Origin: an uncultured Gammaproteobacteria bacterium
GTDB taxonomy: Bacteria; Pseudomonadota; Gammaproteobacteria; GCA-002705445; GCA-002716945
Direction: 5' to 3'
DNA length: 64,000 bases
NCBI GenBank assembly: GCA_902521725.1
Contig: CABYTF010000003.1
Coordinates: 1 to 64,000 of the forward strand
The notes under the pieces were generated by a model, which was not told where the DNA came from, searched no databases, and saw only the letters and a program-made list of their open reading frames with translations. Positions 40,782 through 61,291 of this stretch are shown one piece after another. The translations under genes were made by a program, and so were the position numbers. Numbering within the stretch: position 1 is the stretch's first letter; each line of letters begins with the position of its first letter.

Positions 40782-41294
40782 TTATTTTTCAAATGGGTGT
40801 TCTGTAGCTTTCTTAGCAACAACATCTTGTGCTTTAGGCTCACCACTTACAGCATTTTTGATAGCCATTTTTGTAGCTTCAAAATTGTAATCGTAGATAC
40901 GTTTGTTGTCATCAGCGTCCCAATGAATAAATACGCCTACACATATGAAAATATCATCAGCTTCATCAGCTGGAATTGTTCCATCTTCCACACACTCTGT
41001 TACAGCTCTTGCAACAGCTGCCTGTGCTGGACCAAACATTTGAACAGCTTGTTTAGCACCTTTAATGGTGACCTTGTTAAACATCGCTGTGCTTGGTTTA
41101 CATGGTAGGTTAGGTGAAACTACAGCTAATAAAGATGTAAAACCATCTTTGTTATTACAAAGTGTGTTACAAAATGCATCTTCTACTGCAGAACCACGTG
41201 GTCCCATTAATAAGTCGATATGTGAAATTTCGTTATCCCCACCTTCGGTTACAACTAGTGCTTCACCAACTAATACTTTGTCGACTACTGCCAT
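40782..41294 (-). CDS. fae: Formaldehyde-activating enzyme Fae
   Basis: Condenses formaldehyde with H4MPT to methylene-H4MPT, the entry step of the pathway and the main formaldehyde sink. The 170-residue length is exact for the family. [13 protein letters not shown] carries the catalytic His (His25 here). [17 protein letters not shown], the [13 protein letters not shown] helix and [14 protein letters not shown] are highly conserved. A strong Shine-Dalgarno (AAGGAGAT) and a dedicated terminator indicate high expression. No fused ribulose-monophosphate enzyme is present. Confidence 0.98.
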
Positions 41295-42220: not shown

Positions 42221-43090
42221 TTATGCAAATATGCTTGTAATATAATCAGAAATATTTGCAGACTCAACTTTCTGGAGTCCTTTCCATGCTGGGATACTAT
42301 TTACTTCGATAACGTAATATTGATGTTTATATTCAATTATATCGACACCACAAAAATCAATATTGAGTAATCTAGACGATTTTATCGCAAGGTCGATAAC
42401 ATCTTCATTTAATTTTTCTTTGATGCATTTTGCACCTTTAGAAAAATTATTTATGAAGGTCTCACCGTATCTAGTCATATAAAAATATTTAATATTATCA
42501 TTATTATTTATAACTAATACTCGATAATCATAATTAGGGCTATTGTCTAAGTACTCTTGGAAATAATAAATATTAGTCTGATTTTCAAGTTTATCTAAAT
42601 CGCTAGGTCTTTCAATTAATCTTATGTTATCACCTTGTGATCCAAATAATGGTTTATATATTAATTTAGATTTATAATTGTAATTTGAAATGAATCTAGA
42701 AGCTGCTTTTTGACCCCTCAAAACGTATGTCTCTGGACAGTTTATCTTATTTTTGTTGAGTAAGTATGATGTATATAATTTATCAACTGTAGATTCTATA
42801 GATCTTGCATTATTCACTACCCTCACATTCATTGATTCAAGTATTTTTAGGATATTCAAATAAAATACAATTTCTTCTAATGTTCCTCCAGGTATAAACC
42901 TAACAATGACATTATCGATTTTGGGTAAACGTTCACCTTGATTTTCTAAAATGGTTTCATTTCTCCCCAATACGATATTAATATCTGATATACACGCAGA
43001 GTCAACGGAATGATTTAGTTTAGTGAGAGATAACTTTAATTGTTGATAATGCCATCCTTCCTTTTCAGTAAGAATAAGTGTGCGTGTCAT
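42221..43090 (-). CDS. RimK-like ATP-grasp ligase (MptN-like candidate)
   Basis: 289-residue ATP-grasp protein of the RimK type. It has KPLFGSQGDNIRLIERP as the ATP-binding glycine loop (about residues 146-162), YFQEYLDNSPNYDYRVLVI, and the metal site FCGVDIIEYKHQYYVIEVNSIPAW. In methanogens MptN is a ligase of this family that adds glutamate to H4MPT, and bacterial H4MPT clusters carry relatives. It overlaps mch by 4 bp. Confidence 0.78.
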   Translation of the reverse strand: MTRTLILTEKEGWHYQQLKLSLTKLNHSVDSACISDINIVLGRNETILENQGERLPKIDNVIVRFIPGGTLEEIVFYLNILKILESMNVRVVNNARSIESTVDKLYTSYLLNKNKINCPETYVLRGQKAASRFISNYNYKSKLIYKPLFGSQGDNIRLIERPSDLDKLENQTNIYYFQEYLDNSPNYDYRVLVINNNDNIKYFYMTRYGETFINNFSKGAKCIKEKLNEDVIDLAIKSSRLLNIDFCGVDIIEYKHQYYVIEVNSIPAWKGLQKVESANISDYITSIFA

Positions 43091-44052
43091 TTATTAAATG
43101 AATTATCCATCAATGATAGATCGATATTTCCAGAGGTATATGATTTCCCAGTTTTTAAACTTGATACTATAACTTTTGCTGGACTAAATAACATTTTATC
43201 TATTTGGTAGAAATCATATTTATATTCTTTAAATATATCAGCAAATGGTTTCCCATAATCTTTTGAAGTCGAGCTAGGTAATCTCTTTGCTAACTCCTCA
43301 GCATCATCATTAGGAGTATCAACATAAAGATGGACAAGTCCACCATATAAAATCGCATCATTAGTTCTTCCCATGCCTATTAAAAAATCTGGTGCAGGCG
43401 GTGGTAACGGAGCAGACCCAAAACCATCAATCACTTTATCTATAGGGAACCCAAGTTCATGGACTTTATGCAATCCTACTTCAAGAACTCTGCCGACCAC
43501 TTGAGTAGTACCACATAACGATCTCGTAGGTGTAAGTATTACAGTTAGATTTTTTTCTGAAATGTCACAGTCAGTAACAATCTTGTCAATGATCTCTTGT
43601 GGGGGTTTTTGATCAACCTCTAAAACGACAACAGTTGAGAAAAATTTGTCCTCGTAGCCAATATCTTTGAATATATCCTCTTTTCCAGCAAGAGCCCTAC
43701 ATGGACCTGACCCCAGAGCAGAGAAATTATCATCATTTTGCACAAATGACAGAGACCAGCCTGCGTATTGACTTCCAAGGCATGATAAAACTGGATCTGT
43801 ACTATGGACATGTATCGAAAGAGGCCAATTTGGAGCTGAATGAGTCATAGATAAGCTGACCGAACCTAGTCCACCCATACAAATTTCAGTAATTAGTCTT
43901 CCTGCCTCAAGGCATCCCCTAGCCTTAATTCCAGCATCAATAATCTTAGCTCCACCATCAGACTCTGATATTTCCAAATTCAGTTTCTCATGAGATTCAA
44001 CAAGTTTTTCTACCAGAGGTTTTACTTGTTTATTGACGCTAATATTGTTCAT
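43087..44052 (-). CDS. mch: Methenyl-H4MPT cyclohydrolase Mch
   Basis: Hydrolyses methenyl-H4MPT to N5-formyl-H4MPT. The 321 residues match Mch throughout: the GAKIIDAGIKARGCLEAGRL block (about residues 34-53) and MGGLGSVSL. SQYAGWSLS, GSGPCRALAGKEDIF and GFGSAPLPPPAPDFL follow. Located between the RimK-like gene and a second ATP-grasp gene, with 4- and 14-bp overlaps. Confidence 0.97.
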   Translation of the reverse strand: MNNISVNKQVKPLVEKLVESHEKLNLEISESDGGAKIIDAGIKARGCLEAGRLITEICMGGLGSVSLSMTHSAPNWPLSIHVHSTDPVLSCLGSQYAGWSLSFVQNDDNFSALGSGPCRALAGKEDIFKDIGYEDKFFSTVVVLEVDQKPPQEIIDKIVTDCDISEKNLTVILTPTRSLCGTTQVVGRVLEVGLHKVHELGFPIDKVIDGFGSAPLPPPAPDFLIGMGRTNDAILYGGLVHLYVDTPNDDAEELAKRLPSSTSKDYGKPFADIFKEYKYDFYQIDKMLFSPAKVIVSSLKTGKSYTSGNIDLSLMDNSFNK

Positions 44053-46994: not shown

Positions 46995-48251
46995 ATGCCA
47001 AAGATATCAGGTTCTCTATCTCACAAGAATGTTGTCTGCCCTTTTTGCTCTCTACACTGCGATGACCTAGAAATAAACGTTTATGACAACAAATTATCTG
47101 TTAAAAATAATATTCCAAAATCATGTGCTTCTAAGTTTGAGCAACTTAATCTCCCAATATACAGAGAAATGCCTGCTACAATCAAAGGCAAACCATGTGA
47201 AACAAAAAAAGCATATCAATATTCTAGGCAGCTTATCAAAGAGTCAAAAGAGACAATTTTTCTAAACTCAAGCGTTGATGTAAATATTACACGTGAGGCT
47301 TTATCTGCTGCTTCAAAGGTTAATGGCATCATTGATCATGTTAATAGTAGTATTTTTTTAAAAAATATTAGTATTTATCAGAGACGAGGATATATGGCAA
47401 CATCACTGACAGAGATAAAAAATAAATCAGATACTATCATTGTCTTTTCTAATAATTTATTTAAAACTTATCCTCGATTGATGGAAAAATTCTTAGCAAC
47501 TAATGATAGCTTCAGTATAAACCCAAAAAATAAAAAAATATATGTAATAGGAAAACAAATAAGTAATAAAAAAGACTGTGGTTCCAAAGACAAAAGAATA
47601 ACTTATATTGATTTCAATAATAAAAATATATCTGAGTTACTAACTAGCTTCGCTAACAAAAAAAATACAACCTCGATCAGTAATAAGATTTTTAATAAGT
47701 TGCTAACTAGCATTGAAAATTCTAAATACTTATCAATCCTTTGGGCGACATCAGAGTTTTACAGTTACAAAGAGTGTGATGAAATCATATATAATATTTC
47801 TGCGTATGTTGTCTCTCTAAATAAGACAATGAGAGCTGCTTGTTTGTCATTGGCTGGAAATGATGGTGATGTTAGTTTCTCTCAAACTCTAGGATGGATG
47901 TCTGGGTTCCCATCTAGAATTAAATTTACTGGGAATTTCTTTGAGTATGATAAGGATTCGCACAATGCATCACAATTAATTAATTTAGGAAATTCCGATT
48001 TAGTAATATATCTTAATTCTTTATCTGAGAAAAAATTAATTCTCAATAAGAAAAATAAGAATATAGTAATAGGAAGACCATGCACTAAATATAATATTGA
48101 GCCAGATATTTTTATACCATGTGGCATTCCTGGAGTCGACTTTAAAGGGCATATATTCAGGACAGATAATGTTGTGAGTTTACCTTTGTCATCCTTGAGG
48201 CTGTCTCATAACAAAAGTCTTCAGCAAGTTTTAAGAGAGATAATTAAATAA
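46995..48251 (+). CDS. fhcB: Formyltransferase/hydrolase complex subunit FhcB
   Basis: Subunit homologous to formylmethanofuran dehydrogenase FwdB/FmdB. In bacteria it is part of the Fhc complex that transfers the formyl group from H4MPT to methylofuran and releases formate, and it is not known to do redox chemistry. The 418-residue protein begins with a cysteine cluster CPFCSLHCDDLEI (about residues 15-27) recalling the archaeal iron-sulfur motif. The middle is divergent and rich in Lys/Asn, while GNDGDVSFSQTLGWMSGFP and FIPCGIPGVDFKGHIFRTDNV match the family. The 1-bp overlap with fhcA gives operon fhcBADC. Confidence 0.9.
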   Translation: MPKISGSLSHKNVVCPFCSLHCDDLEINVYDNKLSVKNNIPKSCASKFEQLNLPIYREMPATIKGKPCETKKAYQYSRQLIKESKETIFLNSSVDVNITREALSAASKVNGIIDHVNSSIFLKNISIYQRRGYMATSLTEIKNKSDTIIVFSNNLFKTYPRLMEKFLATNDSFSINPKNKKIYVIGKQISNKKDCGSKDKRITYIDFNNKNISELLTSFANKKNTTSISNKIFNKLLTSIENSKYLSILWATSEFYSYKECDEIIYNISAYVVSLNKTMRAACLSLAGNDGDVSFSQTLGWMSGFPSRIKFTGNFFEYDKDSHNASQLINLGNSDLVIYLNSLSEKKLILNKKNKNIVIGRPCTKYNIEPDIFIPCGIPGVDFKGHIFRTDNVVSLPLSSLRLSHNKSLQQVLREIIK

Positions 48252-49906
48252 TGTCCACTTTGTGTCTAAAAAATGGACGTGTGTTTGATCCTATAAATAA
48301 AATTTTCAATAAAAAGAAAGATATTTATATTGAGGATGGAAAAATCACGGAAGTCTCAAACGGTAAAATATCAGAGACAATAGATTGTAATAATAAGATT
48401 GTTATGCCAGGTGCAATTGATTTACACACTCATATAGGCGGTGGGAAAGTAAATATAGCAAGACTGATGTTACAAGAATTTCATAACAATAGTGATAACG
48501 ATTATGATTTGACTGCCGATTTTGTTCCAAGCACACTCAAAACTGGTCTTCAATATATTAAAATGGGATATACATCTTGTTTTGAACCAGCTGTACTTCC
48601 CATAAATGCCAGACAGTCACATGCAGAAATGGCTGATACACCTTTCATAGATAAAGGTGGCTATGCACTTCTAGGTAATGATGATTTTTTATTAGACCTA
48701 ATTTCAAGAGGAGCTCATCAATCAGAAATTAATGATTATGTAGCTTTCATCTTGAAAGCAACGCAGTGCATAGGAATAAAAGTAGTTAATCCCGGAGGAA
48801 TAAATGCTTTTAAGTTCAATCAGAGGGCGCTTAATGTTGACGAAAATTCGGTCCGGTATAAGATCACTCCGAGAAAGATTGTGCGTGTACTTGCGCGTGC
48901 CGTTTATGAGTTGGGTGTACCACACCCTTTGCATGTACACTGTAGTAACTTGGGTGTCCCTGGAAATTTTAAGTCAACGATAGAAACTATAAAAGCTGCT
49001 GAAGGTCTGCCAGTTCATATTACTCACATTCAATTTCATAGCTACGGCAATAATGGAGATCGCAATTTTTCGTCAGCCTCAGCTGAAATAACTGAGTATA
49101 TAAATAAGATACCGAATCTTACGTGTGATGTTGGTCAGGTTTTATTTGGTCAAACAGCAACAATGTCAGGTGACAGCATGAAACAACATGCAAATCATAG
49201 TCATGCACATCCTGATAAATGGCTTTGCATGGACATTGAATGTGAGGCTGGTTGTGGTGTGGTGCCATTTAAGTATACTGACCAAAGCTTTGTAAATGCT
49301 TTGCAGTGGGCCATAGGACTTGAAACATTTCTTTTAACAGAAGACCCTGATAAAATATTTCTTACTACAGACCATCCTAATGGGGCACCTTTTACCTCAT
49401 ACCCTCATTTAATAAAACTGCTTATGGACAAGACATTCAGAGATAATTTACTGGACCAAATGTCAGTTGATATCTCTAAACATACTATTTTAAAAGATAT
49501 TAAAAGAGAGTATACATTGTCTGAAATTGCCACCATGACACGATCTGCACCTGCTAAAATCCTAGGTCTTAAAAATAAAGGATCACTATCAAAGGATGCG
49601 GATGCAGATATAACAGTCTATGACAGTAGTATTAAAGACATAGAAGAAATGTTTGCAAACCCTACACATGTTATTAAAGATGGTATTGTTGTAGTCAAAG
49701 ATGGAGAAATAAAAAAATATACATGGGGTAAGACACAAGTAGTTAAGCCTGAGTACGATACAGCAATAGAGAAAAAATTGAAGAAATACTTTGATAAATA
49801 TCACACTATAGCATTGCCGAACTATAAAATAAGTAATGATGAGATGTCTGAAGTAATTGGGTCTGACATAAATGAAGTTGAATGTATAAGGAAAAGAATC
49901 TCATGA
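48251..49906 (+). CDS. fhcA: Formyltransferase/hydrolase complex subunit FhcA (formylmethanofuran hydrolase)
   Basis: Amidohydrolase-family subunit that hydrolyses formyl-methylofuran to formate. The 551 residues contain the metal-binding HTHIGGGKVNIAR (about residues 59-71). Downstream metal ligands are in LHVHCSNLGVPGN and HITHIQFHSYG, and in FLTTDHPNGAPFTSYPHLI. The C-terminal TRSAPAKILGLKNKGSL is typical of amidohydrolases. The TGA overlaps the fhcD ATG. Confidence 0.96.
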   Translation: MSTLCLKNGRVFDPINKIFNKKKDIYIEDGKITEVSNGKISETIDCNNKIVMPGAIDLHTHIGGGKVNIARLMLQEFHNNSDNDYDLTADFVPSTLKTGLQYIKMGYTSCFEPAVLPINARQSHAEMADTPFIDKGGYALLGNDDFLLDLISRGAHQSEINDYVAFILKATQCIGIKVVNPGGINAFKFNQRALNVDENSVRYKITPRKIVRVLARAVYELGVPHPLHVHCSNLGVPGNFKSTIETIKAAEGLPVHITHIQFHSYGNNGDRNFSSASAEITEYINKIPNLTCDVGQVLFGQTATMSGDSMKQHANHSHAHPDKWLCMDIECEAGCGVVPFKYTDQSFVNALQWAIGLETFLLTEDPDKIFLTTDHPNGAPFTSYPHLIKLLMDKTFRDNLLDQMSVDISKHTILKDIKREYTLSEIATMTRSAPAKILGLKNKGSLSKDADADITVYDSSIKDIEEMFANPTHVIKDGIVVVKDGEIKKYTWGKTQVVKPEYDTAIEKKLKKYFDKYHTIALPNYKISNDEMSEVIGSDINEVECIRKRIS

Positions 49907-50799
49907 AAATAAATGGGTTAGCTATTGAAAATACTTTTGCTGAGGCTTTTAATATGAAAGCAAGTAGAATAATCGTCACAGCTGATAATATAAAGTGGGC
50001 TAGACATGCAGCTGTGTCATTTACTGGTTTTGCAACATCTGTTATAGCCTGCGGGGTAGAAGCAGGTATTGAAAAACAATTGACAACCAAAGATACGCCA
50101 GATGGCAGACCTGGGTTTTCCATACTTCTTTTCTCAATGTCACGGAGTCAGCTAGAAAAGCAACTTGAGACAAGAGCTGGGCAGTGTATCTTGACTTGCC
50201 CAACTACAGCACTATTTTCAGGCCTTGATGGAGAGGATATGATTCCACTTGGTAAAAATTTAAAATATTTTGGTGATGGATATCAAATATCGAAGCGCAT
50301 TGACAAAAAAAGGTTCTGGAGGGTACCAGTAATGGATGGGGAATTTATGTGTGAGGAGATGACTGCACGTATTCCAGCAATTGGTGGTGGTAATTTCTTA
50401 CTTTTATCAAAGAATAGAGCTTCATGTCTTTCAGCATGTGAGATCGCAGTAAACGTTATGAGTAAAATTGATAATATCATTACACCTTTTCCCGGAGGAG
50501 TTGTTCGGTCTGGGTCTAAAGTTGGCTCAAAATATAAAGCGCTGATAGCATCAACCAATGATGCCTTCTGTCCGTCTCTAAGTGGAATTACAGGAAGCAA
50601 ACTTCACAAAAGCGTTAATTGCGTTATGGAAATAGTTATTAATGGATTAACTAAAGGAGATATAGATAAGGGTATTAGAGAGTCACTTATTGCTATATCA
50701 ACATCTAAATACAAAAATGACATTGTATCCGTCTCAGCAGGTAATTATGGTGGAAAACTAGGTCAGCATCACTTCCATCTAAGAAAGATATTAAAATGA
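49903..50799 (+). CDS. fhcD: Formylmethanofuran:H4MPT formyltransferase subunit FhcD (Ftr)
   Basis: Moves the formyl group between formyl-H4MPT and methylofuran. I start it at 49903, overlapping the fhcA stop (ATGA), giving 298 residues starting MKINGLAIENTFAEAFNMK. An upstream ATG at 49882 adds seven residues that no Ftr has. The blocks TRAGQCILTCPTTALFSGL (here ETRAGQCILTCPTTA), IPAIGGGNFLLLSKN, GGVVRSGSKVGSKYK and SVSAGNYGGKLGQHHFHL are diagnostic. Confidence 0.97.
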   Translation: MKINGLAIENTFAEAFNMKASRIIVTADNIKWARHAAVSFTGFATSVIACGVEAGIEKQLTTKDTPDGRPGFSILLFSMSRSQLEKQLETRAGQCILTCPTTALFSGLDGEDMIPLGKNLKYFGDGYQISKRIDKKRFWRVPVMDGEFMCEEMTARIPAIGGGNFLLLSKNRASCLSACEIAVNVMSKIDNIITPFPGGVVRSGSKVGSKYKALIASTNDAFCPSLSGITGSKLHKSVNCVMEIVINGLTKGDIDKGIRESLIAISTSKYKNDIVSVSAGNYGGKLGQHHFHLRKILK

Positions 50800-51587
50800 A
50801 ACCGTTGATTTTTAAATGTAAAATCAAAGATAGACAAAGACTAGACATGAGTTGGCTTTCGACTATTAAAACATCTAAATTATCAGATATCAAAAATATG
50901 CTTATAAGCTATGGATCAAAACAATACAAACTATCTACTTTATTTAATGTGTCTGGGGATAACTTCGAAGATATAGTAATCAAGAATTCACATGCGCATT
51001 TGGACAACATTGGTAGCAAGCTAAAAGATAAAAAAATTACTGTCAATGGAAATGTTGGATTCGGTCTCGCAAAGGGAATGATAAATGGAGAAATTATAGT
51101 AAATGGAAATACTGGTAAAAATGCATGTTCTGGAATGAGAGGAGGTTCTGTACATATTCTGGGTAATGCTGATGATGGCCTCTGTAGCTTACCTACAAGC
51201 ATGAATGAAGGATTAGTTGACGGCTTTATTTATGTAAGGAAAAATGTTGGAGATAACTCTATTATAAGAATGAGAAGAGGTAATATTGTAATAGGTGGAA
51301 ATATTGGATCAGGTTCATGTTTAGAGCTAATATCTGGTTCAGTAGTTATTTTAGGGAAAATTGGTAAAAACTTTTGTCATAAAGCACGCAGAGGAACAAT
51401 TTTCACGAAAGATAAATCCGTGAGTTGTGAGTATATTAAGGCTAACGAGACAGATCTAACTTTTTTTAATTTCTATAAAATGAAGATTAATGCGATACTA
51501 AAACAAAATTTGATTAGGTCGTCTAAACCCTTGAGATATTTTGGAACCAAATCTGAAAGAAAACTAGTAGAACTATATGTTATCTAA
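50796..51587 (+). CDS. fhcC: Formyltransferase/hydrolase complex subunit FhcC
   Basis: Homolog of FwdC/FmdC and of the glutamate synthase C-terminal (GXGXG) domain. The 263 residues fold as a beta helix of repeated glycine turns, for example NGNVGFGLAKGMINGEIIVNGN and the following GKNACSGMRGG, GNIGSGSCLELISG and GKIGKNFCHKARRG. It has a structural role in the Fhc complex. The 3' end stops 5 bp from convergent tlpA. Confidence 0.93.
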   Translation: MKPLIFKCKIKDRQRLDMSWLSTIKTSKLSDIKNMLISYGSKQYKLSTLFNVSGDNFEDIVIKNSHAHLDNIGSKLKDKKITVNGNVGFGLAKGMINGEIIVNGNTGKNACSGMRGGSVHILGNADDGLCSLPTSMNEGLVDGFIYVRKNVGDNSIIRMRRGNIVIGGNIGSGSCLELISGSVVILGKIGKNFCHKARRGTIFTKDKSVSCEYIKANETDLTFFNFYKMKINAILKQNLIRSSKPLRYFGTKSERKLVELYVI

Positions 51588-51592
51588 CAAGA

Positions 51593-52153
51593 TCATCGCA
51601 TCATAGGCGGGATGAACTTACCATCATATTTCTGTGCAAATTGATAACTCTCAATCTGACTTTTCAAGAAATTAACCATATCATCAGATGCAAATTCTCT
51701 TTTACCAACAGCTCTATAAATTAATTTACCCTCTGGATTCATGAGGAATGTTGTTGGTAAACCTGGAACGCCCCAATTTACCTCAAGATCCATATCAACA
51801 TAAATAGGAAATGAGATAGGCATAAGCTTCTTGAATTCCTCAATGTTCTCTGGTCCTGGACCTACATGAAGACCAAGGACAGTAAATTTCTCACTTTTGA
51901 GTGTCTGATGAAGTTTCTCAAGTAGAGGCATTTCGACTTTACATGGATTACACCATGTAGCCCAAAAGTTAACCAATACAAATTTGCCTTTTAGATCCTC
52001 GAGTGTATGAGTTTCCCCATCCATCCCCATTAAATTGAAATCAGGAGCTAGATTTGCAGCAGGCATAGGGTCCATTAGCATATCATTAGCTTGAATAGGT
52101 TGACTGAATAGTGTGAGCAGCATTACACTCACTGTCAGGATATTACTTCTCAT
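51593..52153 (-). CDS. TlpA-family periplasmic thioredoxin
   Basis: 186 residues with a signal peptide (about 1-22, ending QANA-like QAND) and a thioredoxin fold of the TlpA/ResA/DsbE kind. The active site is NFWATWCNPCKVEMPLL with WCxxC (around residue 70), and the cis-Pro region is VPGLPTTFLMNPEG. It likely reduces periplasmic disulfides, for instance in SCO or cytochrome c maturation. It begins 1 bp after the SCO1-MauG stop, which ties it to the methanethiol oxidase cluster. No Shine-Dalgarno; probably coupled. Confidence 0.9.
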   Translation of the reverse strand: MRSNILTVSVMLLTLFSQPIQANDMLMDPMPAANLAPDFNLMGMDGETHTLEDLKGKFVLVNFWATWCNPCKVEMPLLEKLHQTLKSEKFTVLGLHVGPGPENIEEFKKLMPISFPIYVDMDLEVNWGVPGLPTTFLMNPEGKLIYRAVGKREFASDDMVNFLKSQIESYQFAQKYDGKFIPPMMR

Positions 52154-52154
52154 A

Positions 52155-54140
52155 TTAATATTTTAGTTTGTTATCGTGAAACCAGTTTGGATCTTTTAAT
52201 GATACGTCACCTACTGGTGCTGCAAACGCATCAAGCACTAATGTATCCATATTAGAGCCTGTTAGAGTTTTCAAGAATTCAACGAGATCATTAACTTCAT
52301 TCTCTGTCAAATTAAGTGGGAAAATAAGCGGACTGATTGTCTCATTCTTCATCTTGCCTACTTCTGTTACACCGCCCTGATTATAGAATTCCACTACCTC
52401 TTTGAGTGTGGACAATTGACCATTGTGCATATAAGGACCAGAAAGTTCTACGTTTCTCAGTTGTGGCGTCCTAATCTTCCAACGATCATTAGGGTCTTGG
52501 GTAATTAAATACAACCCGAGATCATTAGGCATAATTTCATCTCTAAATGCTGAATCATTAGCATACACGGATGTATCAACATCTACTTCAATTCCTGGTG
52601 CTAGAACAACTTTCTTTCTTGGTGGCTCAACATACATCGATGATTTGAAGCCTATTCCTGTGTTGTGAAGTTTTTCATCTGTAAAGAGAGCATATTCTTC
52701 ATTTACAAGATGACATGCCATGCAATTTCCTTTACCACTAAAGATCTCAAAACCTCTTTTTGCTGATTTAGATATTGCGTTTGATTCACCATTATAATAC
52801 CACTTATCAAAAGGTGAATTTCCACTTACAAGTGCATATTGATATGCAGCAAGTGCACGACTTAGAGAGTCCATGTTAGGTCCTACGCCGTATGCATCCT
52901 CAAATAATCCATCGTAGTCAGGAATAGCTCTTATTTTATTCAGAAGATAACCGGGTGAAGGATTAGCCATTTCATTATGAGCAAGAAGCGGTCCCCATAC
53001 TTGGTCTTCAAGAGAATTCTCTCTGGCATCATGGAAAAATCTTGATAGAAATCCTGCATTCACGACAGTCGGTGCATTTCTTGGAACAGAGCGACCCTCG
53101 GTCCCTACAGCAGTAGCAAGCTCATTATGTGCGAATCCCATCTCTGGAACATGACAGATAGCACATGATATCGTATCAGTATGTGACAATCTTCTATCGA
53201 AGAATAACTTTCGTCCTAGTTCGATTTTTTTAGGAGTCAGCTCAGTACCCTCTGGAAACTTAGGCTCCGGTAAACCTAATTGCTTTGTAGTTGCCATAGT
53301 ATAAAGATCGGCAGGCTTGCCTGCTCTATGAAGACTCTTACTGGCGCTCTCATAGTCACTATCATAGTATCCATCTTTATTATCACCTGGTTTGGATAAT
53401 TTTGATGTTTGAGACTTAACAGCATCAAGTTTAGAACTTGTATCAGCTGCTGCTACTAGTGTTCCATTTTTTGTATTCGGATCTAATAATGTTTTAATGT
53501 CATTGATGATCAAATCAGCATGTAGAAAAGACACACTGTATATGTTTCTTACTTGCTTTTCTTCATCAATCAGGAAAACACGCAATATGTGTGAGATGGA
53601 GCCAATATAGTTTCCTTCATCATCATATTCTTTGATTATACGCTGTTGATAGCCATCTAGGATAGGATCAAGAACATCAGCATTTTTTGTAGTAATAAAT
53701 TGCCAGTCAACAAGATGTTTCTCTGTTCCTGCTCCATACAGCTTCATTATATCTGGTGTATCATTCTTTGGATCAAAACTCAGACTTAGTAGTCGAACTT
53801 TTTTACCTATCTCTGGATCTTTAGAGAGTTTTTGTTGTATCTTGTGGAAAACGGCTGTTGCAAGCGGACATCCATTGATGTCGGTGCATGTGGTATACAT
53901 AAAGTTCAAAAGTGTTACTTTGTCATCGTACAAATCATGCAGTGATGTTGCCTCTTCTAATTGATTGATGACGTCCCCATCTTTAGCTGGAGTAAAACTT
54001 GCTAGAGTGTATGACGACGGACTAGGAGGTGTAAATGTTAAACTCGTCCAGCCAGGTGCTAGAACTGAATTATCATATGTGACCTCTTGTGCCGTAACGG
54101 CTAGTGGTATAACTAATAAAAGTAGGACTCTCCTTAACAT
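52155..54140 (-). CDS. SCO1/SenC - MauG (di-heme cytochrome c peroxidase) fusion
   Basis: 661 residues from the ATG at 54140, giving a clean signal peptide (LRRVLLLLVIPLAVTAQ). Domain 1 (about 30-220) is SCO/SenC-like, with Cys85 and Cys91 in TTCTDINGCPLA (CX5C rather than CX3C) and a later HILRVFLID His. Domain 2 (about 285-640) is a MauG/CcpA di-heme peroxidase with heme sites CAICH (326-330) and CMACH (473-477) and a PYMHNGQLSTL loop. In known methylated-sulfur degraders, SCO1/SenC and MauG genes accompany mtoX and are thought to mature methanethiol oxidase. Here they are one polypeptide. The tandem SD-like leader is described separately. Confidence 0.88.
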   Translation of the reverse strand: MLRRVLLLLVIPLAVTAQEVTYDNSVLAPGWTSLTFTPPSPSSYTLASFTPAKDGDVINQLEEATSLHDLYDDKVTLLNFMYTTCTDINGCPLATAVFHKIQQKLSKDPEIGKKVRLLSLSFDPKNDTPDIMKLYGAGTEKHLVDWQFITTKNADVLDPILDGYQQRIIKEYDDEGNYIGSISHILRVFLIDEEKQVRNIYSVSFLHADLIINDIKTLLDPNTKNGTLVAAADTSSKLDAVKSQTSKLSKPGDNKDGYYDSDYESASKSLHRAGKPADLYTMATTKQLGLPEPKFPEGTELTPKKIELGRKLFFDRRLSHTDTISCAICHVPEMGFAHNELATAVGTEGRSVPRNAPTVVNAGFLSRFFHDARENSLEDQVWGPLLAHNEMANPSPGYLLNKIRAIPDYDGLFEDAYGVGPNMDSLSRALAAYQYALVSGNSPFDKWYYNGESNAISKSAKRGFEIFSGKGNCMACHLVNEEYALFTDEKLHNTGIGFKSSMYVEPPRKKVVLAPGIEVDVDTSVYANDSAFRDEIMPNDLGLYLITQDPNDRWKIRTPQLRNVELSGPYMHNGQLSTLKEVVEFYNQGGVTEVGKMKNETISPLIFPLNLTENEVNDLVEFLKTLTGSNMDTLVLDAFAAPVGDVSLKDPNWFHDNKLKY

Positions 54141-54180
54141 CTCCCTAATATCCTTAATATCCTCTAATATTCTAATATTG
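54141..54180 (-). repeat. Tandem SD-like repeats upstream of the SCO1-MauG start
   Basis: Read on the minus strand, about four 9-10-nt units built on AATATTAGAGGAT, ATTAAGGAT and ATTAGGGAG run up to the ATG. Each contains a purine-rich Shine-Dalgarno-like core, and the last directly abuts the ATG, which is too close for normal initiation. Slippage could tune expression. Confidence 0.45.
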
Positions 54181-54224
54181 TAGATTATTTTATGAGTCAA
54201 ACAACCTTTATTTTAGTAAGCGAA

Positions 54225-54317: not shown

Positions 54318-55679
54318 TTACTTAGAAAGTTCTGCTACTTTAGCTCCATCTTTTGGAGATTTTGCATATAGAGAATATGCGCCAAATCTCATTTGATGTG
54401 GCAAGCCAAGTTTTTCTTTAAGGAAATCTATAGCAAATTGTTGCTCTAGTTTGCCATCTTTATAATGGTAAGCCTTGAAGAATTGTGGCATTTTTTCTGG
54501 TCCATCTGCTTTGTCCCAGTTTGCTAATAATGATGATGTGAAGTAAACACGTTTTCCATCCCAACTTTGAGATAGCATGTTAACTTGGTCACCGATTTTA
54601 TGTGTATACACTTCTTTAGCATTGTGAGGATTTGAAATGTCAAATACTCTGGTCATACCATCATTCCATGTATTTACCCATAGGTGTTTGTCATCTGCTG
54701 TAATTGAGATGTCTACAGGTAGAGGAATCTTAGCAGGATCACCAATAGTTGCTACAGATTCTGTATTCCATTCACCATCTTTCTCATAGATTAACCAAAT
54801 TTGTGAGGTTAATGCAGTTGTGGTGAAACAGTAATTGTTTTGTGAACCCCATGCACATCTAATTTCTAGCGGTGCACCTGGTACATCAAATACTTTTTTA
54901 GGCTTACGTGAATGTAAATCCCAAACTACTACTGTGTTACCAAAACGTTTCATAGCTTCAGAATCACCCATGAGTTTACCTAAGTTCATCATGTAGTTAT
55001 TCCAACCAGTAAATGAAGATGTGATCATCACATTACGTCTTGGTAATGCACGAACATCATAACCATAACCGTCAGCTATTTGACCAGTTTTAGTAGCACC
55101 ATATAGATTTTCATCGTGTGGCATATGATATGTAGCTACATATGTGCCATCATTTGTATATTCAACAAGTGCTGTTCTACCACCAAAATCTTGGTTATTA
55201 GAAAGACCAGAAATCATCATTCTTCCTGGAAGTGCATATGTTGTGTGTGGTCCAACAATTCCACCAGACGCTTTTACAAAATCAGTGATGACTTTGTGAA
55301 GTTTTGGTTTATTTGGATTTGTATGAACATCAAAAATGAAAATTTTACTGGTATCTAATGTCGCTGCCCATAGGTAATGTCTATCATCTGTAAATCCAGA
55401 GTGATGAGCTTCATTACGACCACCGACAGAAATATGTCCGATTACTTGACCGTAGTATGGAGAATTTGGATTAACTGATATAGTAACCAATTTATCTTGT
55501 TCATCCCCAACGCCCACTTGACCTAGTGTCCATACATAAACGTAGTCCTCTTGGCCTACAATTTTAGCCATGTATGGTGACATGCATGTCTCATCTGAGA
55601 ATGCTTGTGTTGGTACAAGTGCTACTGCAAGAAAAGCCGACATCAACATACCATATAAAGTTGATATAAGTTTTTTCAT
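54318..55679 (-). CDS. mtoX: Methanethiol oxidase MtoX (SBP56 family), periplasmic
   Basis: Converts methanethiol and oxygen to formaldehyde, hydrogen sulfide and hydrogen peroxide. The 453 residues begin with a signal peptide (KKLISTLYGMLMSAFLAVAL, cleaved near AFS). The selenium-binding-protein-56 beta propeller follows: GGRNEAHHSGFTDDRHYLWA (about residues 87-106), a GPHTTYALPGRMMISGLSN stretch, and SQSWDGKRVYFTSSLLANWD near the C-terminus. Bacterial MTO is a secreted copper-dependent enzyme, which fits the signal peptide and the SCO neighbours. No selenocysteine codon is present. A good Shine-Dalgarno (AAGGAG) and a structured leader suggest strong, regulated expression. Confidence 0.92.
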   Translation of the reverse strand: MKKLISTLYGMLMSAFLAVALVPTQAFSDETCMSPYMAKIVGQEDYVYVWTLGQVGVGDEQDKLVTISVNPNSPYYGQVIGHISVGGRNEAHHSGFTDDRHYLWAATLDTSKIFIFDVHTNPNKPKLHKVITDFVKASGGIVGPHTTYALPGRMMISGLSNNQDFGGRTALVEYTNDGTYVATYHMPHDENLYGATKTGQIADGYGYDVRALPRRNVMITSSFTGWNNYMMNLGKLMGDSEAMKRFGNTVVVWDLHSRKPKKVFDVPGAPLEIRCAWGSQNNYCFTTTALTSQIWLIYEKDGEWNTESVATIGDPAKIPLPVDISITADDKHLWVNTWNDGMTRVFDISNPHNAKEVYTHKIGDQVNMLSQSWDGKRVYFTSSLLANWDKADGPEKMPQFFKAYHYKDGKLEQQFAIDFLKEKLGLPHQMRFGAYSLYAKSPKDGAKVAELSK

Positions 55680-55791: not shown

Positions 55792-57297
55792 TTAGAAGCT
55801 CCAAGTTAAAGCACCACCTAAGTGGAATGATGAAACTGTTGCTTTTGAGTGATCAAGAGCAGTACAACCTCTGTTTGCTAAACCACCAGCGATAGCTGTT
55901 CCTTTAGCAACATTAGTACCTGTGCTTTCATAGGTACTTGTTGTGTAGTTTGCTTGACCACTACCAAAACACTTGTCTTCTTCAAGTTGAAGTGCAACGT
56001 GAGAATCTAAGCTTAGGAAAGGCACTCCTAAGAAGTTCTCCACACCGAGTCCAACAGCAACTCTGTGCTTATAAATTACAGGTGTTTCCATTGCTTGGAA
56101 ATATGACATAAATAAGCCATACATTGGAGATGAGTATGAAACACCGTTGATGTTTACACCACCAATAGAAGCAATTTGTCTACCTTGTTGTACTTCTGAT
56201 AGTAGAGGATCATCCGCATATCCATAACCAGCACGTAACTTTAGGTTACCCATGGTCTTTTGGACACCGATAGATAGTACGTTTTGATCATCATAAAATT
56301 CATTAAAGAATTTAGCTTCTGACCATTTTTTATGTGTAACATCTACCATTACCATTGTATTTGCATCTAGGCTATGTGATACACCCAGACCAATGTTATA
56401 TGGTTGCTCAACCTCTACGTCTTGACGACATACAGCACCAGAGTCACCGTTACACTTGACTGCTACGTTACCTGCAACAGATGTTGTGTTTGGTGTGAAT
56501 GGATTTGAACCATGAAAACTGGTTACATGTAGGTTATCGTATTCATGTTTTTGTTCAGAGTTGAAATATACGCCAATAGTTGTTGGGCCCATTGTCTTAC
56601 GAGCACCTAATGTACCTCTAAAACCTATGTCATGAACTTGGTTACCAGATCCTGTAAGACCTGCTTCAAGCATAGCGTAGGTAATTGTCATAGATACACC
56701 AACGTCTAGAGTGTCAGACATTTTCATACCGATACCAGCATTTACACCTAAGTTAATAAGCTCTGCACCAGCACCGATTGTGTTAGAAGTATGTCTATAG
56801 TCAACACCGATACCACTTGTCGCTGTCACACCAACACCAAGAACGACAGGTATACCTAAACCTGATAAGTCTTGAGTAACTGCCACTTGAGGCACAGCAT
56901 AAACATCTGCTTTTGATGTAGAATCAAAACCATAAATTTGTGCTCTGTTAGTTGTGTTAGCAACACCGCCATTGTTGGTATAAGAACCACCAAGTTGTGT
57001 TACAGCGTGACCTGCTGATCCATCATGGACCATTGTGGCACGTGGCATATAGAAAGTAGCACCAAACATAAAGTTTGTACCACCATAATATGTTGTTAAT
57101 GTTGCAGGGTTACCAAACACTGCGGATACTGGATCTTCGACGTGAGCAATTGACGTACCAGCCATAGCAGCTGATGCACCATTAAGCACGTTGTGAAGAT
57201 CGAACCCGTGTGGTCCTGCGATTGCGCCAGCTGAGCCTAGAGACAGCGCTGTCCCGACGGCAGCTCCTAGCTTCCAATCTTTTTTAAAAGTTTTCAT
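55792..57297 (-). CDS. FadL/TodX-family outer membrane channel
   Basis: Beta-barrel channel for hydrophobic compounds. From the ATG at 57297 it has 501 residues. An ATG 15 nt upstream overlaps the Shine-Dalgarno (GAGGA) and was rejected. A signal peptide ends AGAIAGPHG; FadL family features follow, such as GASAAMAGTSIAHVEDPVSAVFGNPATL with its NPA motif (about residues 36-63), and the protein ends in Phe (GGALTWSF) as barrel substrates do. TodX/XylN members import aromatic hydrocarbons. Here the neighbours are methanethiol oxidase and a XylM-like monooxygenase, suggesting uptake of their substrate. Confidence 0.87.
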   Translation of the reverse strand: MKTFKKDWKLGAAVGTALSLGSAGAIAGPHGFDLHNVLNGASAAMAGTSIAHVEDPVSAVFGNPATLTTYYGGTNFMFGATFYMPRATMVHDGSAGHAVTQLGGSYTNNGGVANTTNRAQIYGFDSTSKADVYAVPQVAVTQDLSGLGIPVVLGVGVTATSGIGVDYRHTSNTIGAGAELINLGVNAGIGMKMSDTLDVGVSMTITYAMLEAGLTGSGNQVHDIGFRGTLGARKTMGPTTIGVYFNSEQKHEYDNLHVTSFHGSNPFTPNTTSVAGNVAVKCNGDSGAVCRQDVEVEQPYNIGLGVSHSLDANTMVMVDVTHKKWSEAKFFNEFYDDQNVLSIGVQKTMGNLKLRAGYGYADDPLLSEVQQGRQIASIGGVNINGVSYSSPMYGLFMSYFQAMETPVIYKHRVAVGLGVENFLGVPFLSLDSHVALQLEEDKCFGSGQANYTTSTYESTGTNVAKGTAIAGGLANRGCTALDHSKATVSSFHLGGALTWSF

Positions 57298-57436
57298 ATA
57301 ACTTTTCCTCATTTATATATATATATAACGTCTTATGGCTGGGGACATACATCCAGTATTGAAATTTAGAAAATTTCCCCCGTTCAAATCCTTTGTTAAG
57401 ACTCCTTAAAGTATTACAGCTCTCACTGCAATTCTT

Positions 57437-57709
57437 TTACCCTTCGTCTCCTGGTCCGTAGACTCCATCTTCAAACCATTCCCAAGGTCTGTTGCCTGCA
57501 ACTTTAATGAAAAGATAAACACTGATCATATTAGCTACAATTAACAAGAAACCTATAAGCAATGCTATAGGCCACCCTGCTAAACCAGGCATAGAGCCTG
57601 CTGCAAAGTGCCATGTTGGGAACATGCTGCTGAAGAAGTAGTAACACGCTATCCAGAAAGCTACAACGACATAAGTGCCTTGCGCTGTTTTACCGAATAG
57701 AAATCCCAT
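57437..57709 (-). CDS. Small two-span membrane protein, unknown
   Basis: 90 residues with hydrophobic spans at about 12-31 and 46-70, aromatic-rich ends (FPTWHF, NRPWEWF) and an acidic C-terminal tail (DGVYGPGDEG). It has a strong Shine-Dalgarno (AAAGGAG) and is the first gene of the apparent unit 90aa-fadL-mtoX. I do not recognise a family. The size and topology resemble small accessory subunits of transporters or membrane oxidoreductases, which is only a suggestion. Confidence 0.75.
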   Translation of the reverse strand: MGFLFGKTAQGTYVVVAFWIACYYFFSSMFPTWHFAAGSMPGLAGWPIALLIGFLLIVANMISVYLFIKVAGNRPWEWFEDGVYGPGDEG

Positions 57710-57838: not shown

Positions 57839-58939
57839 TCATGAATTACTCGCATCCGTAAACTTATCATAGAATATTTCATCTTTAGATATACCATTTC
57901 TGGTTAAACATTCCCCTGCTGCATCAACCATTGGGGGTGGTCCACATAAATAACCTTGCCATCCATCCAAGTTTAAGTTCTCTTTTTGAACAACCTCATT
58001 CTCAAAATAATCAGTTACCATTCCACGAGCACCTTTCCAGTCACTGTCTTCTGGCTCCATATTTAAAACAGGTATAAATTTAAATGACGACTCTTTATTC
58101 CAGTTATTTTTTATATCCTCAATCTCTTTGAGGGAATATAAATCTTTTTGAGTTCTTGCTCCAAATAAAAATATCACATCTCTTTTAATCTTATCATTCA
58201 CCCCACCCTCTAATATTGCTTTAATAGGTGCTAAGCCACTCCCGCCAGCAATACAAACAATAGGAGTTTTCTTCTCTCGCAAATAAAATGATCCAAAAGG
58301 TCCATTCATTGTCACACATTCATCAGGATCTCTGTTGTCGCTAAAAAGCCACTCTGTAAATTTACCGCCTGGTACTTTTCTTATGAAGAAAGTAAATTCA
58401 TTCTGGTTTTCATTTTGTGGTGCAGAAGCAAATGAGTATGACCTTGGTCGATCAAGTCCGGGTATAGATAACTCTGCCCACATACCTGGAAGGCCAGGAC
58501 GCTCCCTTCCTCCGGGAACATCGCGATCAGTCTCAATAGTCAAAGCCATGATATCTGAAGTTAGCATGTTGGTGGATTTTACTTTAGTGTTATGTGTGCT
58601 TGCTGGAACTCTCACTAAGTCCCCAAGCTCTACCTCAACTTCACAATCCATAGTAAGGCGAGATTGGCAGGCAAGAATGTAATCATTAGCTAGCTCCTCT
58701 TTAGTAAGTGCTTCGCTGAAATCAACCATAGGTTTGATTTTTCCTTTTACAAGCTTACACTTACATTCACCACAAGACCCGAATTTACAGTTGTGAGGCC
58801 AGTCATGACCATCTTCCAGTGCTGCGCTTAATAACGTAGTATTTTTAGCAACATGAACACTCTTACCAGAGGGTAATAATGTAACTGTGCTATCTTTAGG
58901 TTTTGTTCCGAAGAACCATAAATATTTGTATATATTCAT
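57839..58939 (-). CDS. XylA-type [2Fe-2S] ferredoxin-NAD(P)H reductase
   Basis: Electron-transfer component for an oxygenase. The 366 residues start with a plant-type ferredoxin domain with cluster Cys51, Cys56, Cys59 and Cys91 (CKFGSCGEC, then LACQS). A ferredoxin-NADP reductase module follows: RPRSYSFASAP binds FAD, IAGGSGLAPIKAIL binds NAD(P), and the CGPPPMVDAA motif lies near the C-terminus. This order is that of XylA, the partner of xylene monooxygenase XylM. It most likely feeds NADH electrons to the membrane monooxygenase encoded at 60.1 kb. It is transcribed separately from that gene, past a strong terminator. Confidence 0.9.
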   Translation of the reverse strand: MNIYKYLWFFGTKPKDSTVTLLPSGKSVHVAKNTTLLSAALEDGHDWPHNCKFGSCGECKCKLVKGKIKPMVDFSEALTKEELANDYILACQSRLTMDCEVEVELGDLVRVPASTHNTKVKSTNMLTSDIMALTIETDRDVPGGRERPGLPGMWAELSIPGLDRPRSYSFASAPQNENQNEFTFFIRKVPGGKFTEWLFSDNRDPDECVTMNGPFGSFYLREKKTPIVCIAGGSGLAPIKAILEGGVNDKIKRDVIFLFGARTQKDLYSLKEIEDIKNNWNKESSFKFIPVLNMEPEDSDWKGARGMVTDYFENEVVQKENLNLDGWQGYLCGPPPMVDAAGECLTRNGISKDEIFYDKFTDASNS

Positions 58940-59065: not shown

Positions 59066-59716
59066 TTAAGCAGTATTAATTCTTACTTCACGCATGCTAT
59101 TACCATCATGGTCAGCCTTCGTAGCCATACAACTAAATGGGTTGATAGCTTCTTTGCTTGTTGATGGATGTGATTGCACAGCAGCAAACCACGCATTGAC
59201 TTTAGCACGTGAGCTTACAGCGTTGCCTTTGCCCATATTAGTAGCAACTTGACAAACACCAGCCCAAGCACAGTCTGCTAAAGTGTATTGACCAACAGCA
59301 TAGTCACCTTTCATGTTTCCAAGTGGTGAGTTAAGTGTTGCCTCTAGCTGATCAAGTGCTGCACCAAGTGCTGCATCATCAGAACAATCTGTTTGAGCAG
59401 CGATTGCAATTTCTTGCATCATTCTTGCGCGTGTAACACCGTTTCTGTGAACAAGTGATGGACCAAAGCCTTTATCATCAAGGTATGACATACAAGACAT
59501 AACTCCAATGTTAGTTGCGGAACGATCTTTCAGTATCGGACCGATACCTAGTGGACTCATGCTTCTAACTGATGAACTTGGACCCCAGTCATCTTCTGTA
59601 TGGCAATTAAGGTCAACACCTTTTTCGCCTGCAGCAATTAACACTGCATTGGTATGTGGACATTTAGGACTTCCATAGAGGTCCATAACATCCCTTAAGT
59701 GATCTCCAATTGGCAT
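59066..59716 (-). CDS. Glutathione S-transferase family protein
   Basis: 216 residues with a thioredoxin-like N-terminal domain containing LYGSPKCPHTNAVL (CPHT, about residues 16-22) and a GST-like helical C-terminal domain (GQYTLADCAWAG). The C-terminal domain is unusually Cys- and Ala-rich. The fold family is fairly clear but the substrate is not. Placed directly after the ferredoxin of a membrane monooxygenase, it may conjugate a reactive thiol, aldehyde or peroxide product. A G-rich Shine-Dalgarno (AGGGGG) precedes the ATG. Confidence 0.8.
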   Translation of the reverse strand: MPIGDHLRDVMDLYGSPKCPHTNAVLIAAGEKGVDLNCHTEDDWGPSSSVRSMSPLGIGPILKDRSATNIGVMSCMSYLDDKGFGPSLVHRNGVTRARMMQEIAIAAQTDCSDDAALGAALDQLEATLNSPLGNMKGDYAVGQYTLADCAWAGVCQVATNMGKGNAVSSRAKVNAWFAAVQSHPSTSKEAINPFSCMATKADHDGNSMREVRINTA

Positions 59717-60058: not shown

Positions 60059-61291
60059 TTACTTCTTAGCTGATCTTAAGCCAAGGTCAACGTTACCAGC
60101 ATCTTGTAATACATCGCCTGCGAAAGGTGTGCCTTCGTACCCAACTTCTTTGTTAAGTCTTGCAGCAATAGCTCTCTCTTCGTCTGTAGCAAAATGCTCA
60201 TCCCATGCAGCTAATCTTTTACGCATGTACCAATGCCATATTGGTGGTACTAGTGCGATGAAGAATACTACAAAGTATCCCCATCCTGTGTTAGGGCAAC
60301 CTACGTTTTCAAGTTCCCAGAAATGTGTTTCTCCACGATCATGGTGGTCAGCTTGACGACCAATTTCAATGAAGAACCATGCTGTGAAACATGTTGAATT
60401 ATCCCAGTTATGGCGATAATCGATAGGTTGATCTTTAACACGGATTAAACCGTAGTGCTCTAGGTAGTTCAATGCTTCTAGTTCAAAGTTTGAAATACCC
60501 CAGATTGTAGCTAAACAAGCCATTCCAATCCAGCCACCAGCCATGAAGAATAGTGCTACTGTTGGGACAGCCATTAGATAACCACGAATCCAACGGTTTT
60601 GCCATGAAATGAAAGGTACTCCCATTCTTGAAAGTCTTTCTTTTTCCATGTTGTATAAGAATTTAGATTGACCTAAATATGATAGTGGATAATGACCATA
60701 AATAGTACGACCGCGAGGAGCAGTTGCAGGATCATCTTCACTAGCAAGTTCTAGGTGATGGTTATATACGTGTGCATAACAGAAATGCGCAGAACCTGAA
60801 AGTGCCATCATTAGACGTGAAATCACAAAACCAAAACCTTTGGTATGAGATAGCTCATGTCCGTAAATAATACCGATACCAATAAAGATACCAGATGATA
60901 ATGTAGCACCAATTAGGTTAATGCCTGTTATTCCTTCGTGCATTACAAGAATGCCAGGAATAAGTTCCATAATTACCGCACCTTCAGCTCCACCTAGTGC
61001 CATGAATGTATAAAGTCTCCATGCCATTACTAGTTGGAAAAGTACGAATACAGGTAGCATGAAATACATAGTTAAGTTCTGGAATGTTGGCCATCCAAGA
61101 GTTTCACCGTTTTCATCGTACCCTACACCTGTTGTTTCAAATTTTGTAGCGATGTCTACAAGTAGACCTACAAAAAGAAGTACAACGCCTAACCAAGCCA
61201 TAATACCGCCTAGTAAGACACCAGCACCAGCAACTATAATTAGAATTGGTGCAAGTAGGTAACGAACGTTTAATAGTATGTTTCCGATCAT
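60059..61291 (-). CDS. XylM/AlkB-type di-iron membrane monooxygenase
   Basis: Integral membrane non-heme di-iron hydroxylase, 410 residues from the ATG at 61291 (GGAGG 4 bp upstream). About six hydrophobic helices carry the histidine boxes HELSH (145-149), HVYNHH (174-179), NYLEHYG (275-281) and GRQADHH (311-317). In AlkB and XylM the last box has a third His (RHSDHH, NHINHH); here it is Gln313, so one presumed iron ligand is missing. The C-terminal LAAWDEHFATDEERAIA region resembles XylM more than alkane hydroxylase. No alcohol or aldehyde dehydrogenase for hydrocarbons is nearby. With ferredoxin, XylA-like reductase and methanethiol oxidase beside it, the substrate may be a methylated sulfur compound. 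Confidence 0.9.
   Translation of the reverse strand: MIGNILLNVRYLLAPILIIVAGAGVLLGGIMAWLGVVLLFVGLLVDIATKFETTGVGYDENGETLGWPTFQNLTMYFMLPVFVLFQLVMAWRLYTFMALGGAEGAVIMELIPGILVMHEGITGINLIGATLSSGIFIGIGIIYGHELSHTKGFGFVISRLMMALSGSAHFCYAHVYNHHLELASEDDPATAPRGRTIYGHYPLSYLGQSKFLYNMEKERLSRMGVPFISWQNRWIRGYLMAVPTVALFFMAGGWIGMACLATIWGISNFELEALNYLEHYGLIRVKDQPIDYRHNWDNSTCFTAWFFIEIGRQADHHDRGETHFWELENVGCPNTGWGYFVVFFIALVPPIWHWYMRKRLAAWDEHFATDEERAIAARLNKEVGYEGTPFAGDVLQDAGNVDLGLRSAKK

Follow-up and report, generated by a model that had tools for sequence, protein, structure and literature searches.

A Gln-bearing clade of AlkB-fold membrane di-iron monooxygenases, co-occurring with methanethiol oxidase, is a candidate for the first step of DMS breakdown

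What might a membrane di-iron monooxygenase do when glutamine stands in the place of one of its canonical histidine ligands? The question is raised by one gene in the window, as we call the whole 64,000-nucleotide stretch of DNA analyzed here, which comes from a contig of an uncultured gammaproteobacterium. The gene and the codon concerned are as follows.

60059..61291, minus strand: Gln-clade AlkB/XylM-like membrane di-iron monooxygenase, 410 aa, proposed DMS monooxygenase (Pfam; FtAlkB fold match)
60353..60355, minus strand: codon CAA for Gln313, which replaces the Fe2 ligand His311 of FtAlkB (sequence alignment)

The reading frame is intact, running on the minus strand from an ATG at 61291 to a stop at 60059 (410 aa), and this open frame together with strong conservation rules out decay of the gene, as the first-pass annotation had held. 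FA_desaturase was the sole Pfam domain found in the protein (E 2.9e-26), and a sequence comparison with the PDB gave only the two FtAlkB structures, 8F6T and 8SBB, as relatives. In FtAlkB, Fe1 is bound by His137, His141, His167, His172, and His314, and Fe2 by His171, His272, His311, His315, and Glu271 (Chai et al., PMC10113152). When the two proteins were aligned, the equivalents of the Fe1 ligands were H145, H149, H174, H179, and H316, and those of the Fe2 ligands were H178, H279, Q313, H317, and E278, with the third box reading GRQADHH over QRHSDHH and Gln313 lying opposite His311. By this alignment, a single ligand appears to be replaced, at Fe2, and the remaining eight His and the Glu are kept, which agrees with the earlier statements that one canonical His ligand is missing and that the other boxes are intact. 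No substitute His was seen near Gln313 in the FtAlkB alignment. H323 (in GETHFWEL) was ruled out as a replacement ligand, since there are clade members with Ser or Tyr at that position (L176, L119). Gln313 could be a weak or absent Fe2 ligand, or it could be offset by H200, E270, or E309.

An AlphaFold2 model built from a 76-row alignment had a mean pLDDT of 92.2 (an earlier 7-row model, with a pLDDT of 49, was discarded) and gave TM values of 0.71-0.81 against FtAlkB 8F6T and 8SBB. Foldseek returned the same two structures (E 1.4e-14 for 8F6T and 1.2e-11 for 8SBB) and no other solved fold that matched with confidence. With its FA_desaturase domain, AlkB fold, and remaining His motifs (HExxH, HxxxHH, the His of the EH box, and the HH of the last box), the protein belongs to the AlkB/XylM-like membrane di-iron hydroxylase superfamily.

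We found that Gln occupies position 313 in 53/53 non-redundant clade members, at identities down to ~52%, and His in 23/23 XylM/AlkB-like outgroup sequences of the 76-row alignment, while H145, H149, H174, H178, H179, H279, H316, and H317 are present in all 76 sequences. Since every clade member carries the same Gln, Gln313 is not an assembly error. The first-pass annotation was right that AlkB and XylM have a His at this place, and the two objections it had named, that a nearby His fills the position or that Gln is common in ordinary XylM proteins, found no support in the alignment, which has no such His and places Gln in 0/23 XylM/AlkB-like sequences. In the tree, the 53 Gln sequences formed one side of a branch with support of 100/100 and a length of 2.03 changes per column, and the monooxygenase, which lacks the ninth His ligand (RHxxHH) of AlkB and XylM proper, did not fall inside their clades, so that the Gln does mark a separate clade as proposed.

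Most clade members came from a species scan (one genome per species, 84,980 species) with the patterns GETHFWE and MY[FLV][MQ][LY]PVF, and the Gln is part of neither pattern. The scan yielded 80 loci, and RQ[AGC]DHH was read in all that reach the box, with the exception of one that has undetermined letters beside the Gln. The hosts include uncultured marine Gammaproteobacteria, Thiothrix-like single cells, sponge and clam symbionts, Thiobacillus, and Hyphomicrobium. The clade also stood apart when 369 class-mate genomes were searched with an HMM: its full-length genes scored at least 564 bits, and the full-length sequences that came next, all with His, scored no more than 235 bits. Thirty positions, including A173, N177, H200, E270, D297, E309, Q313, R319, and T322, show little or no variation within the clade and are seldom shared by sequences outside it; therefore, the active-site surroundings have changed as a set, and Gln313, which may itself alter the reactivity, is just one position among the 30.

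Genomes of the window's family also carry a second Gln-clade paralog, ~70-75% identical, with no reductase or mtoX nearby (L053-L058 and L062, in the same genomes). This paralog has an internal TGA stop in one genome (G006), and no second Gln-clade copy was found in the window's own assembly. Elsewhere, three loci have an AlkB-like ORF of more than 800 codons with an ordinary RHADHH box near the Gln-clade gene (L081:14988-17441, L084:14154-16661, and L090:9412-11877), two of them in Porisulfidus sponge-symbiont MAGs.

The finding is the operon, rather than one residue. On the minus strand, the monooxygenase gene is followed, in order, by seven others.

59066..59716, minus strand: GST/SspA-like protein, 216 aa, second in the operon (weak Pfam match)
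57839..58939, minus strand: ferredoxin-FAD-NAD(P)H reductase of the BenC/MmoC/XylA type, proposed electron donor (Pfam Fer2, FAD_binding_6, NAD_binding_1)
57437..57709, minus strand: small membrane protein, 90 aa, conserved at the same place in the window's family
55792..57312, minus strand: FadL-like outer-membrane porin, 506 aa, homolog of the Methylophaga thiooxydans Toluene_X/FadL protein beside the same monooxygenase
54318..55679, minus strand: methanethiol oxidase MtoX (SBP56; NCBIfam NF052453 at 716 bits against an equivalog cut-off of 650; Pfam SBP56)
52155..54200, minus strand: SCO1/SenC-MauG fusion, proposed MtoX maturase (Pfam)
51593..52153, minus strand: TlpA-like thioredoxin-fold protein, last gene of the operon (Pfam)

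From the monooxygenase to the TlpA-like gene, the gaps are 342, 126, 129, 124, 112, 117, and 1 bases, and the series is probably co-transcribed as an operon. The same order was found gene for gene in those relatives with enough flank (L045, L046, L047, and L050), and in L049 with broken frames. The L049 genome has a 100% identical monooxygenase, and its reductase, FadL, and sco/mauG genes are split into several frames, as from sequencing errors; the same three frames are intact in the window. In NCBIfam, the reductase came nearest to BenC, below the cut-off, and the GST-like protein has an M. thiooxydans ortholog with clear GST_N and GST_C matches. The 90-aa membrane protein gave no informative Pfam match and, outside the window's family, weak matches only (L063, L091). 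The SCO1/MauG fusion is the same as that described in M. thiooxydans (PMC5739008, PMC6548844).

Further C1 genes lie beyond the operon, the fhc genes just past its end and mch and fae at a greater distance.

46995..51587, plus strand: fhcB, fhcA, fhcD, and fhcC, formyl-transfer step of H4MPT formaldehyde oxidation, converging on the operon end
43087-44052, minus strand: mch, methenyl-H4MPT cyclohydrolase (NCBIfam TIGR03120, above cut-off)
40782-41294, minus strand: fae, formaldehyde activation (NCBIfam TIGR03126, above cut-off)

By NCBIfam, fhcA and fhcD score above the cut-off, and fhcB and fhcC score below it. The organism looks like a small-genome methylotroph, with 0.97 Mb assembled. A NuoEF-like protein at 62586 is possibly part of a formate dehydrogenase.

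Since the fold, the reductase type, and the FadL-like porin recall the xyl and alk systems, we considered whether the enzyme simply hydroxylates alkanes or methyl-aromatics, as AlkB and XylM do, for growth on small hydrocarbons, which we judge to be very improbable. Thiolase was absent from 10/10 genomes, M. thiooxydans included, compared to matches in 12/14 control genomes; therefore, ordinary beta-oxidation is lacking and alkane catabolism is unlikely. In addition, all 23 AlkB/XylM-like sequences compared keep the His, and the window's operon sits among C1 genes and mtoX. Alkane and xylene catabolism were rejected because of the missing thiolase and the C1 neighborhood.

Instead, the monooxygenase is probably an AlkB-fold membrane di-iron enzyme of its own clade that carries out the first step in the breakdown of dimethylsulfide (DMS). 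Methyl ethers and thioethers are known substrates of AlkB-type enzymes. In the proposed pathway, DMS, a hydrophobic gas, would enter through the FadL-like porin in the outer membrane, and one of its methyl groups would be C-hydroxylated with O2 and NADH to give CH3-S-CH2OH, the electrons passing from NADH through the adjacent ferredoxin-FAD-NADH reductase to the monooxygenase. This unstable hemithioacetal would fall apart into methanethiol and formaldehyde, periplasmic MtoX would oxidize the methanethiol, giving formaldehyde plus a reduced sulfur product, and both formaldehydes would enter the H4MPT pathway encoded next door.

In a class sample of 369 genomes, mtoX was present in 13/13 Gln-clade genomes compared to 35/369 overall (Fisher, 5e-15 if genomes are counted and 2e-7 if every family counts as one, with 179 families assumed; 4/13 Gln-clade genomes are from the window's own family, which makes the family-level value the fairer one, and neither value fully corrects for descent). 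Among 50 genomes reached through named Gln-clade loci, mtoX was found in 46, one of them with a 34-residue fragment only, by a criterion of at least 55% identity over the part present. Three of the four without mtoX make up a subclade with the box GRQCDHHVRGE (L094, L111, and L119, from MAGs of Rhodobiaceae, Porticoccaceae, and Woeseiaceae), which lacks a true mtoX and whose substrate may differ. Conversely, 22 of the 35 mtoX genomes in the class sample have no Gln-clade enzyme, and these may draw their methanethiol from DMSP.

Within Methylophaga, 2/24 genomes carry the Gln-clade gene, and mtoX is in the same two (p = 0.004), namely M. sulfidovorans DSM 11578 (L109) and M. thiooxydans DMS010. 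The latter genome has its first mtoX at 256503-257906 on contig C25, and we identified it as that of DMS010 because these are the coordinates printed for MDMS009_211 (PMC6548844). Its monooxygenase, at 247669-248847 on the minus strand, lies 7.7 kb from mtoX and is 63% identical to the window's protein. The genes after it encode a truncated globin, a GST, a reductase, FadL (Toluene_X), and a second globin, and the order mtoX, sco1/mauG, tlpA is the same as in the window. Divergent from the monooxygenase are genes for a VWA-domain protein and an AAA ATPase of the CbbQ/NorQ type, a pair that lies divergently upstream in Methylophaga and relatives (L160:7660-10568; also L074, L079, L091, L092, L095, and L109). 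Such pairs act elsewhere on metal or active sites, and by analogy this one may mature or activate the di-iron enzyme. Truncated globins are regular neighbors of the Gln-clade gene outside the window's family (L160:5736-6098 and 1598-2089; L063, L065, L096, L109, L115-L118, and L120) and possibly serve oxygen supply.

In M. thiooxydans, growth on DMS strongly induces the fatty acid desaturase MDMS009_226 (Kroeber and Schaefer, PMC6548844), along with the NAD(P)H flavin reductase MDMS009_61, the FadL-type porin MDMS009_906, and both mtoX genes (PMC6548844). Tags 97, 140, 211, 261, 274, and 284, which bracket 226, belong to mto-cluster 1 on the scaffold of the monooxygenase, which has ~273 genes; therefore, 226 and 61 are expected there too. 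Only two FA_desaturase genes were found in M. thiooxydans, one on the mto-cluster 1 contig and the other on contig C9. From scaffold and uniqueness, MDMS009_226 is almost certainly the M. thiooxydans ortholog of the monooxygenase. Porin tag 906 falls in the mto-cluster 2 range, and a FadL homolog was found near the second mtoX there.

Kroeber and Schaefer read MDMS009_226 as membrane repair (PMC6548844), and the operon context suggests another reading. Their suggestion, extended to the clade, would have the enzyme desaturate or hydroxylate lipids and so shield the membrane against thiol and H2O2 stress during MtoX activity. The Pfam FA_desaturase domain is consistent with this, as is the QxxHH motif, since front-end desaturases have it as their third box (PMC6130074, PMC3826146). 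However, the confident matches of the model are two AlkB structures only, the FadL-like porin as a companion points to an external substrate, and the tie to mtoX spans many families. We consider a lipid substrate distinctly unlikely.

A closer alternative keeps the monooxygenase in this pathway but changes its substrate or product: it might S-oxygenate DMS to DMSO, or it might oxidize methanethiol, dimethyl disulfide, or a different small methylated molecule. Its gene is linked to mtoX and C1 metabolism and not specifically to DMS, and the clade holds several paralogous lineages, one of which (L094, L111, and L119) comes from genomes without a true mtoX. On the other hand, methanethiol is already covered by MtoX, and induction by DMS together with both mtoX genes, with no other known first enzyme, fits C-oxidation of DMS best (PMC6548844). 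This alternative is therefore unlikely, if worth keeping in mind.

The primary DMS enzyme is missing in M. thiooxydans; the methyltransferase proposed was not found, and a hydrolase or a monooxygenase has been named as possible (PMC6548844). As of 2022, the gene for the first step there was still unidentified (PMC9563715), and a 2026 review gives DmoA as the sole entry for DMS to methanethiol (PMC13360808). No Bac_luciferase (PF00296) protein was found in 5 genomes of the window's family; therefore, DmoA is excluded as the DMS enzyme of this organism. Our literature search, which was limited for preprints (bioRxiv) and subscription papers, returned no report naming the Gln-clade family together with DMS or mtoX. 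Two published observations speak against a DMS monooxygenase of this kind. DMS monooxygenase activity was undetected in M. thiooxydans extracts, as Boden 2010 is cited in PMC6548844; extract assays can easily miss a membrane-bound enzyme whose reductase is a separate protein. Furthermore, growth on DMS has been reported for M. aminisulfidivorans, and yet no mtoX was found in it (PMC6548844), which calls for at least one further route.

On balance, we lean towards the Gln clade, with Gln in place of an Fe2 His, catalyzing the first attack on DMS in Methylophaga as well as in many marine and sulfur-oxidising proteobacteria, where it would demethylate DMS by C-hydroxylation and be a second kind of DMS monooxygenase unrelated to DmoA. 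What is new would then probably be an AlkB-fold di-iron monooxygenase with a new substrate. The different substrate that the first-pass annotation tied to the changed ligand set gains only indirect support, from the linkage to methanethiol oxidase and the published induction by DMS (PMC6548844).

If the Gln-clade gene is the first DMS gene, metagenomes could be screened with it for DMS consumption. Bacterial breakdown is a major sink for DMS, a climate-relevant gas, and no other compound carries more biogenic sulfur from the sea into the atmosphere (PMC6548844). The clade is also a natural set of AlkB-fold enzymes with one His ligand replaced in every member, and so is useful for asking what role each iron plays.

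Compared to known systems, the monooxygenase shares with FtAlkB (8F6T, 8SBB) its fold, eight of nine ligand His, and Glu271 (E278 here), but has Gln313 for His311 and is only 23-24% identical. The AlkB system uses rubredoxin, whereas a BenC/XylA-type reductase lies alongside here, and the tested Gln-clade hosts have no thiolase. XylM-type and XylM/AlkB-like hydroxylases (L027-L034, L178-L185) are the closest non-Gln relatives at ~25-32% identity and share the XylA-like type of reductase, but all have His at the 313 position and lie across the branch of 2.03. Front-end fatty acid desaturases have the same QxxHH third box (QADHH here), with Gln for the first His, and this Gln is reported to be essential (PMC6130074; QxxHH also in PMC3826146). 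The likeness is one of analogy, with no kinship implied, since the protein studied here has an AlkB fold, a different operon, and no cytochrome b5 domain found by Pfam. DmoA of Hyphomicrobium sulfonivorans carries out the reaction proposed here, from DMS to methanethiol and formaldehyde, but is a luciferase-superfamily flavoenzyme, whereas FA_desaturase is the only domain in our monooxygenase. Finally, the M. thiooxydans operon assigned to MDMS009_226 differs from that of the window in adding two truncated globins and in having mtoX 7.7 kb away, whereas in the window mtoX lies in the same operon.
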